From: Cytobacillus oceanisediminis
Lineage (GTDB): Bacteria > Bacillota > Bacilli > Bacillales > Cytobacillaceae
Assembly: GCF_004366035.1 (NCBI RefSeq)
Contig: NZ_SOEE01000004.1
Span: forward strand, 320,007-384,006
Direction of reading: 5' to 3'
Length of the DNA: 64,000 nt
Positions 7,791 through 64,000 of this stretch are shown here, piece after piece; the first letter of the stretch is position 1, and every line of letters starts with the position of its first letter. The position numbers were made by a program, and so were the translations under genes. Under the pieces are notes generated by a model. It had not been told where the DNA came from, did no database searches, and saw only the letters and a program-made list of their open reading frames with translations.

Positions 7791-9911
7791 ATGGGACAAG
7801 ATAAACATGTCTACAGCCTTGAGTGGGCTGGGCGCAAATTGACCGTTGAGATTGGCCAGCTTGCAAAACAGGCTAACGGTGCGGTTTTAGTGCGCTATGG
7901 CGATACTGTAGTATTAAGTACTGCTACAGCATCAAAAGAACCGAAAAATCTGGATTTCTTTCCACTGACAGTTAACTATGAAGAACGTTTATATGCTGTT
8001 GGTAAGATTCCGGGCGGGTTTATTAAGAGAGAGGGCCGTCCAAGTGAAAAAGCGATTTTGGCCAGCCGCTTGATTGACAGGCCAATCCGTCCATTATTCG
8101 CTGACGGTTTCAGAAATGATGTACAGGTTGTAAGCATGGTGATGAGTGTGGATCAAAACTGCTCATCAGAAATGGCTGCAATGTTTGGCTCATCATTAGC
8201 CCTTTCTGTGTCGGATATTCCATTCGGCGGACCGATTGCAGGGGTCAGCGTAGGGCGCATCGATGGAGAATTTATCATTAATCCATCTGTGGATCAGGCC
8301 GAGAAGAGCGATATCAGCCTGGTTGTAGCCGGAACAAAAGATGCGATTAACATGGTAGAAGCAGGTGCAGATGAAGTGCCTGAAGAAACAATGCTTGAGG
8401 CGATTATGTTTGGCCATGAGGAAATCAAACGCCTTATTGCTTTCCAGGAAGAAATTGCGTCTGAAATCGGCAAAGAGAAAATGGAAGTTGTTTTATACCA
8501 GGTTGATCAGGACCTTGAGGCTGAAGTTCGCGGCATTTGTGAGAATGATATGATTCAAGCTATCCAGGTGCAGGAGAAGCATGCCCGAGAAGCTGCCATT
8601 AAAGCAGTTAAACAAGAAATTACAGCTAAATATGAAGGTGAAGAAGCAGACGAAGACAAGCTGAAGCAAATCAGGCAGATTCTTGATAAAATTGTTAAAG
8701 CTGAAGTACGGCGTCTAATCACAGAAGATAAAGTTCGCCCGGATGGACGCGGATTGGATGTTATCCGCCCGCTATCATCAGAGGTAGGCCTTCTGCCGCG
8801 CACACATGGTTCCGGTTTATTTACACGCGGACAAACTCAGGCTCTGAGCATATGTACATTAGGAGCTCTTGGAGATGTACAGATTCTTGATGGACTGGGC
8901 ATTGAAGAAGAAAAGAGATTCATGCACCACTACAATTTCCCTAACTTCAGTGTAGGTGAAACTGGGCCAATCAGAGGGCCAGGTCGCCGCGAAATCGGAC
9001 ATGGTGCTCTTGGAGAACGCGCTCTGGAGCCGATCATTCCATCTGAAAAGGATTTCCCTTATACAATCCGTCTAGTATCTGAAGTATTGGAATCTAATGG
9101 TTCAACATCACAGGCAAGTATTTGTGCAAGTACATTGGCCATGATGGATGCCGGTGTGCCTATTAAAGCGCCAGTTGCCGGTATAGCAATGGGACTTATT
9201 AAATCAGGCGAACATTATTCAATCCTGACAGACATTCAGGGTATGGAAGACCACCTGGGTGACATGGACTTCAAAGTGGCGGGTACTTCTAAGGGTGTTA
9301 CTGCCCTGCAAATGGATATTAAAATTGAAGGCTTGTCTCGTGAGATTCTTGAGGAAGCTTTGCAGCAGGCGAAAAAAGGCCGCATGCAGATTCTTGATTC
9401 CATGCTGAGCACTATTGGGCAGCCAAGAAAAGAGCTGTCTGAATATGCTCCTAAGATTCTAATGATGTCAATTAACCCTGATAAAATCCGTGATGTTATT
9501 GGGCCAAGCGGAAAGCAGATCAATAAGATCATTGAAGAAACAGGCGTTAAGATAGATATCGAACAAGATGGAACAGTATTCATCTCATCTGTAAATGAAG
9601 AGATGAATCAAAAAGCGAAGAAGATTATTGAAGATATCGTACGTGAAGTGGAAGTTGGACAAATGTATCTTGGCAAGGTGAAACGAATTGAAAAATTCGG
9701 TGCATTTGTTGAAATCTTCTCCGGTAAAGATGGTTTGGTTCACATTTCTGAACTTGCTGAAGAGCGTGTAGGAAAAGTGGAAGATGTTGTATCCATCGGT
9801 GACGAACTTCTAGTAAAAGTTACTGAAATCGATAAGCAAGGCCGCGTAAACCTTTCACGCAAAGCCGTATTGCGTGAACAGCGTGAGCAAAAGGAAAAAG
9901 CACAGCAATAA
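7791..9911 (+). CDS. pnp: Polyribonucleotide nucleotidyltransferase (PNPase)
   Basis: 706 residues. It is a phosphate-dependent 3'-5' exoribonuclease and a component of the RNA decay machinery with RNase Y and RNase J. Two RNase PH domains (first about 10-230, second about 310-545) are followed by a KH domain ([16 protein letters not shown], near 565) and an S1 domain near 620-690. The ATG at 7791 fits AGAGAGGGG upstream and the usual start; an in-frame extension to 7767 is rejected. A terminator follows. Confidence 0.97.
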
Positions 9912-38816: not shown

Positions 38817-38830
38817 CGAATGGATGTTCG
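38817..38830 (+). promoter_or_regulatory. LexA (SOS) box of recA
   Basis: CGAATGGATGTTCG matches the Bacillus SOS box CGAACRNRYGTTCG at 13 of 14 positions. It ends ten bases before the -35 of the recA promoter. Confidence 0.88.
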
Positions 38831-57141: not shown

Positions 57142-59055
57142 ATGGGGAAAATCATTCAGCTGGAGGATGCGCTTTCTAATAAAATTGCTGCCGGCGAGGT
57201 GGTGGAGAGGCCAGCATCGGTGGTAAAAGAATTGATGGAGAACTCGATCGATGCCGGAAGTACGATTATTGAAATCGAAACGGAAGAAGCCGGCCTGGCC
57301 AAAATCCGCATTATCGATAATGGCGATGGCATTGAAGAAGATGATGTCCTGAATGCCTTTCATCGCCATGCCACCAGTAAAATTAAAGACGAAAATGACC
57401 TTTTCCGCATCCGCACGCTCGGATTCCGAGGAGAGGCATTGCCAAGTATTGCGTCAGTTTCGAGAATTGAAATGAAAACCTCAACCGGGGATGCCGGCAC
57501 ACGTGTTGTCATCGAAGGCGGAAAAGTCGAAGTGATGGAAAAGGCACCCGGCAGAAAAGGGACTGACCTTACCGTGACGGATTTATTTTTCAACACGCCG
57601 GCAAGGCTTAAATATATGAAGACGATTCACACAGAGCTTGGCAATATTACAGATGTGGTTAACAGGCTTGCGCTCGCCCATCCGGAGGTCGCCATCCGCC
57701 TGATCCATAATGAGCGAAAGCTCCTGCAGACGAACGGAAATGGGGATGTCCGGCAGGTGCTTGCAGCTATTTATGGGATCAATATTGTGAAAAAGATGGT
57801 TCGGATTGAAGCAAGCTCACTTGATTTTAAAATCAGCGGCTATGCGGCACTGCCGGAGATTACAAGGGCATCAAGAAACTACATTTCTACCATGATCAAC
57901 GGCCGCTTTATCAAGAATTACTCATTGGCCAAAGCCATTCAGGAGGGGTATCATACTTTGCTGCCAATCGGCCGCTACCCGATTGTGCTCCTGAACATTG
58001 AAATGGATCCGCTCCTTGTCGATGTGAACGTCCATCCATCGAAAATGGAGGTGCGCTTAAGCAAGGAACATGAATTGAATGAGCTTGTATCAGGTGCTTT
58101 GAAGGCAGCATTTAAAAAAGAGGAACTGATCCCTTCCGGATTTACACAGCCGAAGACCATAAAGCCTAAGTCAGAACAGACGGCTCTTGATCTGGATCAT
58201 TTGCCTGAGCATCGGGAGCATGTGCCTTCTTATGTGCGTGAAACGAGGGAGGAAGCTATCCGGCAGTACCCGAATGGGGCAGTTCTGCAAAGCCCTCCAG
58301 TTCAACCGGCAGCAGCAGAATCTCCTGACTTGCAGGATGCTCCTTTCATGGAATTAAGCCCTTCAGCTGAAGAATTGCCTGAAGCGGATCAGCACATATT
58401 CCAGCCCGAAGAGCCGAGAGCTGCAGGATTGAAACAGTTTTTTGCAGAGACCGCCACAGTGGAGGAGCCATCCCGGGTGCCGCCGCTCTATCCAATTGGG
58501 CAAATGCATGGGACATATATTTTTGCCCAAAATGACCGGGGCCTTTATATAATTGATCAGCACGCCGCCCAGGAGCGGATTAAGTACGAGTATTTCAGGG
58601 AGAAAGTCGGCCAGGTTGAAAGTGAATTGCAGGAAATGCTTATACCGCTGACATTTGAATACTCAACGGATGATTATATTAAAATTGATGAATACAAAGG
58701 CGAGCTTGAGAAAGTGGGGGTATTCCTTGAGCAGTTCGGACATAACAGCTTTATTGTCCGTTCCCATCCGCAATGGCTGCCTAAAGGCGAGGAACAGGAA
58801 ATCATCGAGGATATGATTGAACAGCTTTTAGCCATGAAGAGAGTTGATATTAAAAAGCTGCGTGAGGAAGCTGCCATTATGATGAGCTGTAAAGCTTCCA
58901 TTAAAGCGAACCACCACCTCCGCAATGATGAAATCCAGGCGCTGCTTGATGAATTGCGGAGGTCTTCCGATCCGTTCACATGCCCGCATGGACGGCCGAT
59001 CATCATTCATTACTCCACTTATGAAATGGAAAAGATGTTCAAACGAGTGATGTAG
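57142..59055 (+). CDS. mutL: DNA mismatch repair protein MutL (endonuclease type)
   Basis: 637 residues. N-terminal GHKL ATPase: [44 protein letters not shown] variable linker (about 340-440) follows, then a C-terminal dimer and endonuclease domain with [12 protein letters not shown] near 472-483 and CPHGRP from 614, the metal-binding site of nicking MutL proteins found in bacteria without MutH. GGGGGTGAC precedes the ATG. Confidence 0.97.
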
Positions 59056-59065
59056 AGAGGTTTGC

Positions 59066-59096
59066 GGCAAGGGGAAATTCTCCTTGCCCACTTTTT
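59066..59096 (+). terminator. mutSL terminator and two TTGCCCA direct repeats
   Basis: Stem GGCAAGG/CCTTGCC with an AT-rich loop, then TTTTT. TTGCCCA occurs at 59084-59090 and again at 59095-59101, exactly 11 bases apart, right at the end of the integrase gene. That spacing suits arm-type integrase binding sites. Confidence 0.65.
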
Positions 59097-59102
59097 GCCC
59101 AT

Positions 59103-60215
59103 TTAACTTAAATATGACTCTAGTTTTAGTAAATTTACAGTTTCATATTTTTTTGTAATATGAACATAGACATCGGCTGTCATATTGATAGTTGAGTGCC
59201 CCAATCGTTCACTAGCAAACTTTAGATCTGCACCACTTTCCAGCAACATAATTGCGTGAGTGTGACGCAATCCATGCGGGGAAATGTGGGGGAGGTTTGT
59301 ATTAGCTTTTTTTAAAATAGAATCAATCGTCTTGTTGACTCCGTATTCTCCAATTTCTTTTCCGTTTGGGCACCTTACTAAGAACTCTGATTTATGGTAA
59401 TCGGCACCATGTTTCATTTTATTTTTCTTTTGCCATAACTGATACTGCTTTAAATCAGCAATTAAAGTATTATCGATCCCAATTGTGCGGTTACTTGATT
59501 TGGTTTTTGGTTTTTTCACACCATTATCACTTCTCGTTTTTGTGATGGAAATGGTTTTATTTTCAAAATTAATATCTTCCCATTTTAAGGCTAACATTTC
59601 ACCTTTTCTCATTCCTGTTCGGAGCAAAATGGATGCGATAATATAATGATGATATGGAGATTTTTTAGCTGCATCCATGAAGATTTCTACTTCATCTCTT
59701 GATAAATAATTAATTTTTTCTTCTTCGTCAACTTTTATAGATATCCCTTGATACTTATTATGTGTAACCATTTCTAGTTCAACAGCTTTATTGATTGCAG
59801 TACAAAAAATAGAATGAATCGTCTGAATGGTTTTTTTAGCGTATCCTTTTTCAACTAACGTATTAATAAATTTTTGATATTCTATCCGTGTTAACTGATT
59901 CATCTTATAATTTCCGAGGCTTGGGATAATATGATTATTGATATACCAAAATCTATTAAATAATGTTCTTTCTGCGCATTGGGCTCCATAAATTTCTAAC
60001 CATTCGGTAAGCCAATCCTTTAGTATAGTTTCGCTATTTGCAATAACAGAATGTTGCCGGAGATAAAACTTTTTCTCCACTTCGGCTGCTTCAATCTGTG
60101 CCTCTTTTTTAGTTCTAAATCCACTTTTACTTTTTTCTTTTGGTTTTCCAGTAGCAGGGTCTATATATTTAATTCTGTATTGCCATGAATTACCCCTTTT
60201 TCTGAAACTAGCCAT
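59103..60215 (-). CDS. Phage-type tyrosine recombinase (integrase)
   Basis: 370 residues. The N-terminal AP2-like arm-binding domain (FRKRGNSWQYRIKYI), core-binding SAM-like domain (about 75-155) and catalytic domain from 175 are all present. Active-site residues are seen: Arg in LLRTGMRKGEM, HxxR in HGLRHTHAI, His in LGHSTINMT and the Tyr in ADVYVHIT. The gene therefore looks intact. Start is ATG at 60215 behind AAAGGGAG. An SOS-type box is 19 bases upstream. No excisionase, replication or structural phage gene is nearby, so it is a lone integrase or an element remnant. Confidence 0.93.
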   Translation of the reverse strand: MASFRKRGNSWQYRIKYIDPATGKPKEKSKSGFRTKKEAQIEAAEVEKKFYLRQHSVIANSETILKDWLTEWLEIYGAQCAERTLFNRFWYINNHIIPSLGNYKMNQLTRIEYQKFINTLVEKGYAKKTIQTIHSIFCTAINKAVELEMVTHNKYQGISIKVDEEEKINYLSRDEVEIFMDAAKKSPYHHYIIASILLRTGMRKGEMLALKWEDINFENKTISITKTRSDNGVKKPKTKSSNRTIGIDNTLIADLKQYQLWQKKNKMKHGADYHKSEFLVRCPNGKEIGEYGVNKTIDSILKKANTNLPHISPHGLRHTHAIMLLESGADLKFASERLGHSTINMTADVYVHITKKYETVNLLKLESYLS

Positions 60216-60233
60216 GAATGCCACTCCCTTTTA

Positions 60234-60247
60234 AGAATATATGTTCT
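60234..60247 (-). promoter_or_regulatory. LexA-type box upstream of the integrase
   Basis: On the - strand AGAACATATATTCT matches 11 of 14 positions of the SOS consensus, and its core GAACATATATTC is identical to the box at 60561-60574. Confidence 0.55.
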
Positions 60248-60259
60248 GTTTTTGTTGAA

Positions 60260-60280
60260 AAGAAAAGCCCAAAAGGGCTA
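60260..60280 (-). terminator. Terminator of the 83-residue orphan gene
   Basis: On the - strand: AGCCC, TTTT loop, GGGCT, then TTTCTTTT. The gene's TAG lies in the left arm. Confidence 0.75.
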
Positions 60281-60529
60281 AACCTTCACTACCGGCCTAA
60301 TCTGCTTCACGCCTTCAGTAATATCATTCTCCTCGTTCCAGGTAACCATCTCAATAATCATATCCCTGCAGCCTGATTCACGCCATTGTTGCTGGATCCA
60401 TTGGTAGGCTACAACTGCAACCGCGAAGTTTGGATCATCCTTAAAATCTCGGTCTCGAACGAAAAACTCTCCGCGGCTTGAACCTCTAATGCCTTCAATA
60501 TTGAGCATTGTTTCAATTACTATTCTCAT
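60278..60529 (-). CDS. Small orphan protein with its own SOS box
   Basis: 83 residues, no family recognised. Start MRIVIETMLNIEGIRGSSRG, then an aromatic and acidic middle with several Trp (YQWIQQQWRES; MVTWNEENDI) and a basic end. It is cytoplasmic, with no signal peptide. ATG at 60529 after AAGGAAGTGA. Its promoter carries a 13-of-14 LexA box and its stop is within a terminator, so it is a single-gene SOS unit. It could be a phage-derived regulator or a DNA-damage protein; this is not resolved. Confidence 0.75.
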   Translation of the reverse strand: MRIVIETMLNIEGIRGSSRGEFFVRDRDFKDDPNFAVAVVAYQWIQQQWRESGCRDMIIEMVTWNEENDITEGVKQIRPVVKV

Positions 60530-60560
60530 TTTTTCACTTCCTTTTTGCATTAATTATACA

Positions 60561-60574
60561 CGAATATATGTTCG
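60561..60574 (-). promoter_or_regulatory. LexA (SOS) box of the 83-residue gene
   Basis: CGAACATATATTCG on the - strand matches CGAACRNRYGTTCG at 13 of 14 positions. A perfect TATAAT for the - strand lies just downstream (60552-60557), so LexA would sit between -35 and -10. Confidence 0.82.
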
Positions 60575-60684
60575 GTTATGATGCCATGCAGAGCGGGTTT
60601 GTTATATAAGATAAATGATGATTCTTTTGGAAAAAAAGAAAAAAACACTACTCTCTGCAGAATAGTGCATAAACACCAATGGCT

Positions 60685-61134
60685 TTACGAATTTCCACTC
60701 AAACTATTTATAATTGTATTGGAAAAGATTTCACTTGTATAAATGACTTCATCAGCACCTGCTCTTTTGGCATTCTCTATGCTTGAATCAGAGAGTATCT
60801 CAATAATAGTAAACACAGAAGGATTCAGGGACTTAATTGCTAACAATGAAATAACTGATTTAGAATCAGAGACTGTTTCAGAGGAGTGCCTATCAGCTGT
60901 GATGAAAGTTATATTTGTATCCTTTATTCCAGCTCTCTTCAATGTTTCATCAAACATAGGATTTCCATATATATATTCAACTGACTCAGATGAATATGGG
61001 AGTTCCCTCACTGAGCAATCAATAATATTTATTTTTACATTTGAAATGGCTGTTATGATTTCTATTAACTTCATTGCTCTCTCGTTCCAGCCAATAATGA
61101 GAATGTTGGTATTATCAAGTTTTTTAACAGTCAT
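60685..61134 (-). CDS. Stand-alone RCK/TrkA-N domain protein
   Basis: 149 residues made almost wholly of an RCK N-terminal fold: ILIIGWNERAMKLIEII, IDCSVRELP, GNPMFDETLKRAGI and ITADRHS. It recalls the cytosolic part of YugO-type potassium channels. No membrane segment or C-terminal RCK lobe is encoded in the adjacent DNA, so it is either a free regulatory subunit or what is left of a channel gene. It is divergent from the riboswitch-controlled Ktr operon. ATG at 61134 follows AGGTG; an in-frame GTG at 61146 is a rival. Confidence 0.75.
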   Translation of the reverse strand: MTVKKLDNTNILIIGWNERAMKLIEIITAISNVKINIIDCSVRELPYSSESVEYIYGNPMFDETLKRAGIKDTNITFITADRHSSETVSDSKSVISLLAIKSLNPSVFTIIEILSDSSIENAKRAGADEVIYTSEIFSNTIINSLSGNS

Positions 61135-61222
61135 TAGTTCACACACCTAATTTTAATATTATTTTAATCATAGACGCTTATCAGAATTCTTAAACAACTT
61201 TATTAAGATTAGACAAATAGTA

Positions 61223-61251
61223 TTGACAATAGAATATGATAGGAGTAATTT
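61223..61251 (+). promoter_or_regulatory. Promoter of the Ktr operon leader
   Basis: Perfect TTGACA (61223-61228), 17 bases, TAATTT (61246-61251; weak -10). An alternative is TAGACA (61211-61216) with TATGAT at 61236-61241. Confidence 0.5.
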
Positions 61252-61284
61252 ATATTTATTATTTTTAATACAAAGACCTTTTTG

Positions 61285-61427
61285 CTGAATCTTTTGAGCG
61301 GGGGAACCATTTCTGATAAACGATGTTTATCTTGGGGTGAATCTTAGCATATTAAGCTAAGAAGGGATACTCTCAATCCCTAATCCGACAGCTAACTCCG
61401 TAAGCGCTAATCGAGAGAAGGGTTAAT
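61285..61427 (+). ncRNA. Cyclic di-AMP riboswitch (ydaO-yuaA type)
   Basis: The leader has the conserved ydaO blocks in order: GCGGGGGAACCA (61308 on), GGGGTGAATCTTAG, the AGGGATACTCTCAATCCC region, and AATCCGACAGCTAACTCCGTAAGCG (61382-61406) followed by a closing GAGAG segment. This class binds cyclic di-AMP and turns off potassium uptake genes. The terminator that follows and the Ktr genes behind it fit an OFF switch. Confidence 0.9.
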
Positions 61428-61436
61428 GATGTCATT

Positions 61437-61466
61437 GACCATTCTTTTATTAAGAGTGGTCTTTTT
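61437..61466 (+). terminator. Riboswitch-controlled terminator
   Basis: Ten-bp stem GACCATTCTT/AAGAGTGGTC (one G-U), loop TTATT and five T, 34 bases before the KtrC-like gene. It should form when c-di-AMP is bound. Confidence 0.85.
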
Positions 61467-61499
61467 GTGTCCATTTTTGGAAAAGGAAGGATATGTCTT

Positions 61500-62156
61500 A
61501 TGAATAAGCAGTATGCTGTTTTTGGTTTAGGACGTTTTGGTGGAAGCTTGGTAAAAGAGTTTCATGAATTAGGTGCAGAGGTTTTGGCAATCGACATTGA
61601 CCAGGAGAAGGTGAATAAATTTGCTCATTTTGTTACCTATGCTGTACAAATTAATGCATTTGACGAAGAAGCACTAAAACAAGTAGGGATAAGAAATATT
61701 GACCATGCCTTTATTTCCTTCGGTGAAAATATAGAGTCGAGTATTCTAACATCCTTGGTGTTAAAAGAAATGGGAATACCCGTAGTTTGGGCAAAAGCAC
61801 ATAATGATTATCACGCTAGAGTTCTTGAAAAAGTGGGTGTTGATCGAGTAATTCATCCTGAAAGAGATATGGCAAAGCGGATAGCAAATCATATCGTTTC
61901 TGATAAAATGATTGATTATATTGAGCTATCAGAAGATTATAGTATGGTTGAAATCGTTGCATCAAGTAAAGTACATAATAAATCTTTAATAGAACTTGAT
62001 ATTAGAGCAAAATACGGATGCAACATTGTAGGAATTCAAAAAGGGAAAGATATTATTGTGTCACCATCAGCAGAAGAAGTTATCCAAAAGGGCGATATAC
62101 TAATTGTTATGGGGCATAACTCTGATATTAACCGATTTGAGAAAGAAGGAGTATAG
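61500..62156 (+). CDS. ktrC: Ktr potassium uptake regulatory subunit (KtrA/KtrC family)
   Basis: 218 residues. N-terminal Rossmann/RCK_N domain with GLGRFGGSL (nucleotide binding) and the acidic end of strand two (AIDID); C-terminal RCK_C lobe from about 135 (DIRAKYGCNIVGI). The octamer ring gates KtrB in response to ATP/ADP, and RCK_C lobes bind cyclic di-AMP. HPERDMAKRIA and SMVEIVASS resemble B. subtilis KtrC more than KtrA as I recall them. ATG at 61500 behind AAGGAAGG. The pore gene follows after one base. Confidence 0.92.
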   Translation: MNKQYAVFGLGRFGGSLVKEFHELGAEVLAIDIDQEKVNKFAHFVTYAVQINAFDEEALKQVGIRNIDHAFISFGENIESSILTSLVLKEMGIPVVWAKAHNDYHARVLEKVGVDRVIHPERDMAKRIANHIVSDKMIDYIELSEDYSMVEIVASSKVHNKSLIELDIRAKYGCNIVGIQKGKDIIVSPSAEEVIQKGDILIVMGHNSDINRFEKEGV

Positions 62157-62157
62157 T

Positions 62158-63480
62158 GTGAAGCGCGGAATTATTAATCTCAACCCATCCCAGTTGCTTA
62201 TCTTGGTATTTGCCGTATTTATCTCTTTAGGTACCATCTTGCTTAAATTGCCCTTTGCGACGACAGAGTCCATTAGATGGATTGATGCCTTATTCACTGC
62301 TACTTCAGCCATGACGGTCACTGGACTCGTTGTAGTAGATACCGGAACAGCCTACACCTTATTTGGTGAAATTGTCATTGCTTCGTTAATCCAGGTGGGT
62401 GGTTTAGGAATCATGTCATTTGCCGTTCTCATTTATATGATGCTTGGCAAAAAAATTGGCATCAAAGAACGATTGGTTGTGCAGCAGGCATTGAATCAAA
62501 CATCCCTGGGAGGAGTTATCCAATTAGTTAAAAACTTATTTATCTTTTCGATAATAATTGAATTCATCGCAATGGCATTTTTGTCAGTGAGATGGGTGCC
62601 TGAGTTAGGATGGGGAAAAGGATTATATAATAGTTTTTTTCATGCTATTTCAGCATTTAATAATGCCGGATTTGCTTTATGGCCAGACAGCCTAATGGGA
62701 TATGTCGGAGATCCTGTTGTAAATATTGTGATTACTTTCTTATTTATAATCGGTGGTATTGGTTTTACAGTATTATCTGATTTATGGTATAAGAAGGAAT
62801 TCAAAAAAATGAGTCTTCATTCAAAAATGATGGTTGTGGGTACATTTGTAATCAATATTGTTGCAATGTTAATTATATTTGTGTTGGAATATAGCAACCC
62901 TAATACTCTTGGTGGCTTAAATTCCATAGGTGAAAAACTTTGGGCTTCTTATTTTCAGGCAGTTACACCTAGAACTGCAGGTTTTAATACATTAGATATT
63001 GCAGGCCTAGAAGAATCAACAATATTTTTGTTTCTTCTATTAATGTTTATAGGAGCCGGGAGTGCATCTACAGGTGGAGGAATTAAACTAACAACCTTCT
63101 TAGTCATTTTATTCTCGGTTATCACTTTTTTAAAAGGGAAAGAAAACATAGTATTAGGAAGAAGGTCAATTAGTCTTACAGTTGTTTTACGTTCTTTAGC
63201 CATCTCAACCATCGCATTATTTTTTATTTGTTTTGCAATTTTTATTCTAAATATTACAGAGGATGCACCATTTCTCATGGTTGTCTTTGAAGTAATTTCA
63301 GCATTTGGAACAGTTGGATTATCAATGGGACTAACAGGCTCACTAACCTTTATCGGGAAATTTGTTATCATTTTTATAATGTTCGTAGGGAAATTAGGTC
63401 CTCTTACATTGGCATTCTCACTTGCAAATCCTGAAAAAGCAAAAGTTAAGTATCCTAATGAAGAGATCCTTACAGGATAA
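62158..63480 (+). CDS. ktrB: Ktr potassium uptake pore subunit
   Basis: 440 residues, hydrophobic, four membrane-pore-membrane repeats of the TrkH/KtrB type. The filter loops are seen as TVTGLVVVDT, FNNAGFALWP, PRTAGFNTLD and FGTVGLSMG, each with the conserved Gly; the gate loop IGAGSASTGGGIKLTT is intact. It carries K+ (with Na+) across the membrane. GTG at 62158 lies one base after the regulator's TAG, with GAAGGAG upstream. Sequence is closer to KtrB than KtrD as I recall them. Confidence 0.93.
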   Translation: MKRGIINLNPSQLLILVFAVFISLGTILLKLPFATTESIRWIDALFTATSAMTVTGLVVVDTGTAYTLFGEIVIASLIQVGGLGIMSFAVLIYMMLGKKIGIKERLVVQQALNQTSLGGVIQLVKNLFIFSIIIEFIAMAFLSVRWVPELGWGKGLYNSFFHAISAFNNAGFALWPDSLMGYVGDPVVNIVITFLFIIGGIGFTVLSDLWYKKEFKKMSLHSKMMVVGTFVINIVAMLIIFVLEYSNPNTLGGLNSIGEKLWASYFQAVTPRTAGFNTLDIAGLEESTIFLFLLLMFIGAGSASTGGGIKLTTFLVILFSVITFLKGKENIVLGRRSISLTVVLRSLAISTIALFFICFAIFILNITEDAPFLMVVFEVISAFGTVGLSMGLTGSLTFIGKFVIIFIMFVGKLGPLTLAFSLANPEKAKVKYPNEEILTG

Positions 63481-63507
63481 AGTTTATACTTTTAAATAAA
63501 TGGGTGG

Positions 63508-63552
63508 ATTTTGCCCCGTTAGGTTAATCTTATTGACCTAACGGGGCAAAAT
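63508..63552. terminator. Large inverted repeat after ktrB
   Basis: Arms 63508-63525 and 63535-63552 (TTTTGCCCCGTTAGGT / ACCTAACGGGGCAAAA) pair over at least 16 bp. T residues lie inside the stem rather than after it, so a terminator is likely but not typical. Confidence 0.6.
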
Positions 63553-63710
63553 TTCTGTTATAAGTTTGTGAATTAATGATTTAAACAATCAGGTGATAAA
63601 TCCAAGATTAGCTGCTGATAAGGCAGCCTCTTTCTTCTTCGACAAACGGGGCAGGTTTGTTGAACAAGGAATGATATACTTTTGTTAAAAAGTAATTAGA
63701 GGTGGAAAAA

Positions 63711-64000
63711 ATGGAGCCATTTTGGGAAAGGGCTTATTTGGATGATGAAGTTGAGACATTCGGAAAGCCAAGCGAAGAAGTAATAAATGTAAGCAAACAT
63801 TTACATAGAAATTCAAAAATACTTGACCTGGGTTGTGGGGATGGAAGGCATGCAATCTATTTGGCAAGAATGGGACACATAGTGGATGCAATAGATATAT
63901 CAAAAGCAGGGATAGCCAAAGTTAACCGTATTAAAGAAAAACTCAATTTAACGAATTTAAGAGGATTTGTAAGAGATGCAACAAACTACTCGAGTTTAAC
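63711..64000 (+). CDS. SAM-dependent methyltransferase (5' part only)
   Basis: The first 96 codons are present; the gene runs off the window. Motif I is intact as ILDLGCGDGRHAIYLA near residue 38, and VDAIDIS follows as motif II, so this is a class I methyltransferase, similar to small TehB/UbiE-like enzymes. The N-terminus MEPFWERAYLDDE is typical of that type. Substrate unknown. AGAGGTGG precedes the ATG at 63711. A TTCGACAAA (Spo0A-box-like) lies 65 bases upstream. Confidence 0.82.
   Translation, partial: MEPFWERAYLDDEVETFGKPSEEVINVSKHLHRNSKILDLGCGDGRHAIYLARMGHIVDAIDISKAGIAKVNRIKEKLNLTNLRGFVRDATNYSSL

Follow-up and report, generated by a model that had tools for sequence, protein, structure and literature searches.

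The integrase gene that follows mutL in this genome belongs to a prophage-derived island, integrated in the 3' end of mutL and measuring 6,667 bp from repeat to repeat. We think it probable that the island derives from a mutL-site prophage whose two ends now enclose a Ktr cassette for potassium uptake together with an orphan gene, and that its integrase, which the SOS response is predicted to switch on and which is hence likely to excise it, still confers mobility. The most interesting part of the locus is the orphan itself, which represents an unnamed, SOS-linked family that is independent of the integrase. The window, i.e., the whole stretch of 64,000 nucleotides that was analysed (G000:C4:320007-384006), comes from a genome of 5.84 Mb. 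Positions are those of the window, continued along the contig beyond its end where needed.

An island of prophage origin at the mutL 3' end

The island is bounded by two exact direct repeats of 22 bp, ATTACTCCACTTATGAAATGGA, at 59009-59030 (the left attachment repeat, or attL core) and 65676-65697, the latter lying beyond the window at G000:C4:385682-385703. The part of the island within the window spans 59031-64000 and continues to about 65697. One relative, G047, carries the empty site: a single stretch of 48 bp (L095 648-695) matches both 59009-59056 and 65676-65723. Paired flanking repeats, with the site unoccupied in relatives, are the pattern expected of a phage-type integrase. Searching 36 genomes provided 30 mutL loci of the genus, and in most of them the match to the window ends at the mutL stop codon. 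A native MreB-like gene, named by eye, lies within 1.5 kb of mutL in 21 of the 30 loci and is absent there in 9, the window's included (for one of the 9, the sequence extends just 911 bases downstream). In G045, a different insertion of ~9.8 kb (L096 625-10466) is found between mutL and the MreB-like gene, behind a native mutL tail.

The final 47 bases of mutL (57142-59055, plus strand) are a copy of the 3' end of the gene. The left mutL-tail copy is similar to the integrase-side ends of the elements in G048 and Bacillus sp. J33; for the right copy, the similarity is to the native end of mutL in G047. Judged from these resemblances, the present mutL tail came with the element, which displaced the native tail. 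The stop codon of the displaced tail, TAG, now reads TAT, a loss that fits a long residence of the island. The mutL gene has kept its full frame and its stop, followed by a terminator-like stem supplied by the element (59066-59088, plus strand, from a terminator scan), and the native next gene is convergent. A first-pass annotation had described a recombination module directly after the mismatch repair genes. The position is right, and it has a simpler cause: the integrase stands there because the element attaches in the 3' end of mutL.

Phage ends are kept on both sides. The left one (59103-60282, 1.18 kb) shows 98% DNA identity to one edge of provirus L140 (34 kb), including the terminator, the predicted box and the integrase. 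On the right, 65026-65795 shows 89% identity to G048; about 100 bases of this match are chromosome, and about 670 bp of phage end are kept. The integrase (59103-60215, minus strand, 370 aa) had been read as an intact-looking tyrosine recombinase, and our searches agree. Its frame is open, its arm-binding, SAM-like and catalytic domains match Pfam and PHROGs above cut-off, and it is 96-99% identical to phage copies. Tyrosine integrases share the catalytic motifs R, HxxR, H and Y, all of which were found. In provirus L140, a gene with the N-terminal domain of a type I restriction R subunit (8663-9886) adjoins the integrase.

Relatives of this integrase occupy the same site in other Bacillaceae. 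G048 carries there a ~38-kb prophage encoding terminase, portal, head, tape-measure/tail, endolysin/lysis, RecT-like and RecE-like proteins, with a gene for an ImmA-like protease before the integrase; the latter is 96% identical to ours over 309 residues, after which the frame changes. Using tblastn, we found integrases of at least 62% identity placed tail-to-tail with mutL in G048, in Bacillus sp. J33 (G050), in one viral contig, and in four further genera represented by five named species: Peribacillus asahii, Metabacillus fastidiosus, Bacillus zhangzhouensis, B. xiamenensis and Heyndrickxia ginsengihumi, the matches in the last two being partial. A remnant of 46% identity remains at the mutL tail of G058. 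The available stretches of a second M. fastidiosus piece (L111) and of L140, L142 and L146 do not include mutL. Strain J33 has additional integrase pieces on other contigs, and several of our loci are the same J33 contigs (L109/L098, L110/L099, L107/L100 and L108/L101/L143).

Two observations bear on the mobility of this clade. A second integrase copy, 86% identical and accompanied by phage remains, lies beside a conjugation-type gene on another contig of the same genome (G000:C11, about 56440-73145; L020, L229). An HD-domain gene is fused to its left arm; the right arm lies ~16.7 kb further on, and behind it comes a frame that by eye reads like the remainder of that gene. This copy was apparently inserted in the HD-domain gene, an ectopic, secondary target site. 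In J33, contig C59 (G050:C59, L099 985-1060) joins the integrase-side end to the far end over the core, an attP-like joint that could represent an excised circle or a tandem copy. Together, the joint and the ectopic copy indicate that this integrase clade moves.

The module had been described as having no visible cargo, which does not hold. Between the phage ends we found the orphan; a gene for a 153-aa TrkA-N domain protein (60685-61146, minus strand, domain match), divergent from ktrA; a c-di-AMP riboswitch (RF00379; 61273-61422, plus strand; 88.6 bits, cut-off 38); genes for a KtrA-type protein with TrkA-N and TrkA-C domain matches (61500-62156, plus strand) and for a TrkH/KtrB-type potassium transporter identified by a domain match (62158-63480, plus strand); and a fragment of a TehB-like methyltransferase (63696-64000, plus strand, 101 aa) extending beyond the window end. 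The stretch from 63.5 to 65.7 kb holds fragments only. Searches of open reading frames and domains between the repeats revealed no structural, packaging or lysis genes of a complete prophage, and the island has no visible excisionase gene. Other contigs of G043, G044, G050 and G059 carry related cassettes, whole or in large part, with 78-79% DNA identity and away from mutL, and hence the Ktr cassette looks like a host cassette. On one of these contigs (G043:C39; L225 3338-6431), a relative of the orphan adjoins the Ktr cassette in the opposite orientation, away from mutL. The orphan and the cassette may travel jointly.

LexA-like boxes at the integrase and the orphan

Each of the two genes is preceded by a LexA-like box on the minus strand. 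That of the integrase, AGAACATATATTCT (60234-60247), lies at -32 to -19 relative to the ATG (60215), scores 11/14 and has the same position in provirus L140. The orphan (60278-60529, minus strand, 83 aa) has a consensus match, CGAACATATATTCG (60561-60574), at -45 to -32 relative to its ATG (60529). This box had been reported to overlap a TATAAT; it lies just upstream of that hexamer (60553-60558, minus strand), a possible -10 element read from the sequence, at which a promoter scan detected no full sigma-70 promoter. Nor does the orphan have a terminator of its own, as first proposed: the terminator-like stem at 60266-60279 (minus strand), which overlaps the orphan stop codon, belongs to the phage integrase module.

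The boxes share a 12-mer, as the first-pass annotation had noticed. This sequence, GAACATATATTC, occurs three times in the genome, two of them at this locus, and its reversed control once. The third exact copy, GAATATATGTTC, is found at G000:C8:134312-134323 (L018, L025). Another LexA-like match in the window, CGAATGGATGTTCG (38817-38830), scores 13/14. The promoter of the genome's own lexA contains CGAACATACATTCT, whose core differs from the shared one by a single base, and the yokF box, as given in a table of SPbeta SOS boxes, likewise has the form GAAC....ATTC (PMC8270828). Consensus scans of the window revealed no enrichment over shuffled sequence, and in the genome CGAACN4GTTCG was found at 1 place vs 5 for its reversed control and GAACN4GTTC at 53 vs 90. 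Since the scans yield no excess, the case for the boxes rests on their position, their conservation and the box of lexA itself.

Conservation is marked for the integrase. By our rule, 11 of 12 close integrases, the window's included, have a LexA-like box within 600 bp upstream, or 10 of 12 after discounting J33_C168, whose unconvincing box lies inside an ImmA-like gene; J33_C138 has none. These copies are related, so that the counts are not independent. Resampled sequence produced a mean of 0.66 boxes in 12 and a maximum of 2 (100 first-order runs). No boxes were found in the first 600 bases of the 12 integrase genes, nor within 600 bp upstream of 12 distant integrases (at most 50% identity), two of which (L144, L145) also show boxes when the reach is extended to 1,200 bp. 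The box precedes immA-int in G048 and in the C11 copy, and stands directly before int in L140 and in the window. Its recurrence in close relatives with both gene arrangements suggests that LexA control of the integrase is likely to be old in this clade.

The orphan family gives a similar picture. Its relatives were listed at 76 places, 66 of which were examined as 67 stretches (G150:C30 appears twice, as L048 and L211); the other 10 are short or broken pieces. A script set the start codons, and several copies are near-identical. A box of at least 12/14 occurs within 150 bp upstream in 35 of the 67 stretches, corresponding to 34 of the 66 places, vs none of 66 downstream and a mean of 0.7 (maximum 3) in 40 first-order resampling runs. 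At 13/14, there are 20 boxes upstream, none downstream and none in resampled sequence. Among the four orphan copies of this genome, those of the window and of contig C7 have a box, and those of C20 and C1 have none. We rejected the reading of the boxes as chance matches. At the level of sequence, both genes have the promoter-region box, conserved in relatives, that is expected of members of the LexA regulon.

Proposed excision of the island, rival explanations and known systems

Sequence comparison establishes the repeats, the empty and occupied sites, the phage ends, the cargo and the conservation of the boxes, and upon these we propose the following mechanism. LexA would directly repress the integrase, the predicted sites at integrase and orphan both being occupied. 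DNA damage would then likely remove LexA and derepress both genes, and the integrase may recombine the two repeats and release the island as a circle. Since a mutL tail is part of the element, mutL would be complete before and after excision. With no excisionase visible, excision may be rare or require the help of a related prophage.

The main rival is that the island is a dead prophage scar, immobile, with integrase and box as leftovers and with the Ktr cassette as the one target of selection, if there is any. The island has lost most phage genes and shows no excisionase, the displaced mutL tail has decayed, the stretch 63.5-65.7 kb consists of fragments, and the integrases at the mutL site of G048 and J33 are broken. 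Yet the window integrase has remained open, with its catalytic motifs and its near-identity to phage copies, and its box and both repeats are retained. A scar is a serious alternative that we nevertheless regard as rather unlikely. Much less credible is the proposal, raised in the first-pass annotation, that integrase and orphan form one damage-triggered unit, with the orphan as a directionality factor or regulator. The genes are adjacent and their boxes have an identical 12-bp core, and the boxes themselves proved to be conserved in relatives of each gene. The pair, however, is not conserved: the orphan is present in 1 of 20 integrase-bearing stretches (several of which are pieces of one element), namely the window's own, and different genes precede this integrase module in the prophages of L140 and G048. 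Conversely, orphan relatives elsewhere have their own boxes and no close integrase beside them. Apart from the window's own, close relatives of the integrase in the orphan loci that we searched come down to a fragment of 26 residues, found ~16 kb away on contig C20; two further integrases there are distant (31-33% identity). We would therefore give this proposal very little weight. The orphan would rather be a separate damage-induced gene caught between phage ends.

The last rival, and the least probable of all, is a mutator switch, in which mismatch repair is disabled by integration and restored when damage triggers excision. It is suggested by the SpyCI islands of Streptococcus, described as small, phage-like elements in mutL whose excision is promoted by damage (PMC3430984, PMC4129442), in the case of SpyCIM1 by mitomycin C (PMC3430984). 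The target gene is the same, but according to these reports SpyCI elements insert at the 5' end of mutL, which they silence (PMC3430984, PMC4129442), whereas the present island lies at the 3' end and mutL retains a full frame and a stop, with a terminator supplied by the element; its native neighbour, MreB-like as judged by eye, is convergent. The 5' switch of the SpyCI type is not found here.

We return to the reading of the island as a derivative of a mutL-site prophage that can probably still be excised. Its nearest known counterparts are the mutL-tail phages of Bacillaceae (the G048 prophage and L140), to which it is linked by an integrase of 96-99% identity and by shared repeats or a shared integrase module that includes the terminator and the LexA-like box. 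Unlike them, it has lost nearly all phage genes and carries the Ktr cassette and the orphan. It would represent a stripped prophage derivative turned carrier of host potassium-uptake genes. As in integrons, whose integrase gene has been described as lying itself under a LexA box (PMC3108266), the integrase gene has its own box, here a predicted one; unlike in integrons, the integrase is of phage type, with one attachment site and no cassette array. A phage gene under predicted control of the host LexA also recalls GIL01 of Bacillus thuringiensis, in which a promoter, the lysogenic P1, is ruled by host LexA; that case concerns P1, and the paper does not use the word integrase (PMC4551915). The clade appears to provide a Gram-positive case in which a phage integrase gene itself, and not just a repressor, is SOS-responsive, in several genera and with one protein-gene target, mutL. 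A literature search, judged mostly by titles and abstract openings, found no published description of the mutL-tail phage clade or of the orphan family.

The orphan family and its SSB-like tip

The closest named relatives of the orphan are proteins of Cytobacillus firmus and C. oceanisediminis. Relatives were found in 46 of 193 genomes of the family that were searched. Sequence search yielded 54 proteins and profile search 260, of which 120 were listed; some are from Neobacillus and Bacillus methanolicus. In line with its description as an orphan of 83 residues, neither it nor the members scanned have a convincing match in Pfam, PHROGs or NCBIfam. The family resides in chromosomes and plasmids, with eight plasmid records; in L022 and L037, the orphan follows a gene that looks replication-like by eye and for which Pfam gives an HTH match only. 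The orphan has no match among phage records. A relative is present in three viral contigs, and the exact joint of orphan and terminator was not found in viral contigs.

The AlphaFold2 model of the C7 copy (mean pLDDT 81.8, pTM 0.68) has a strand-strand-helix-strand body and a tail of very low confidence. A Foldseek search of the model against the PDB and viral models provided nothing at E<=0.001, and the best sequence match in the PDB (E of 0.23) is unconvincing. Among 121 relatives, 81 end in PF, 57 of them exactly in DDLPF, and 27 end in W; IFW or DFW replaces LPF in many of those outside Cytobacillus. By the rule used (an acidic C terminus followed by hydrophobic-P-F), 77 of the 121 have an SSB-like end. 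The genome's own SsbA ends in DISDDDLPF and its second SSB in KEELPF. A third SSB, on the contig of the second phage copy (L215; G000:C11:99011-99307), ends in DEEWPF. By this rule, most of the family ends as does SsbA, and in the C7-copy model the tip sits in the disordered tail. The orphan differs from an SSB in that no SSB (OB-fold) domain matches it, in the 27 relatives that end in W and in the lack of the tip in the window copy.

The C terminus of SSB is described as the site at which SSB partners bind (PMC5872125), and on this analogy we infer that the orphan family may use its tip to reach SSB-binding repair proteins. A family that has no name in three libraries, is often preceded by an SOS box and mostly carries the SSB peptide that recruits repair enzymes could be a lead to a further layer of damage control. 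A broader reading, which we put forward tentatively and hold to be possible but not probable, is that the orphan founds a Bacillaceae-wide, mobile, LexA-controlled family of SSB-tip decoys: small folded proteins, released upon damage, that would redirect RecO, RecQ, PriA, RecJ and the like and tune repair, replication restart or the SOS signal. The same reading includes a prophage clade that would use host LexA directly as its integrase switch at the mutL tail, one member of which would have been stripped into a potassium-uptake carrier.

The window copy differs from most of its family in this respect. It ends in RPVVKV, without the tip. Its frame enters the phage terminator common to L140, and the tip was therefore lost at that joint. 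This copy is probably impaired through the loss of its tip.
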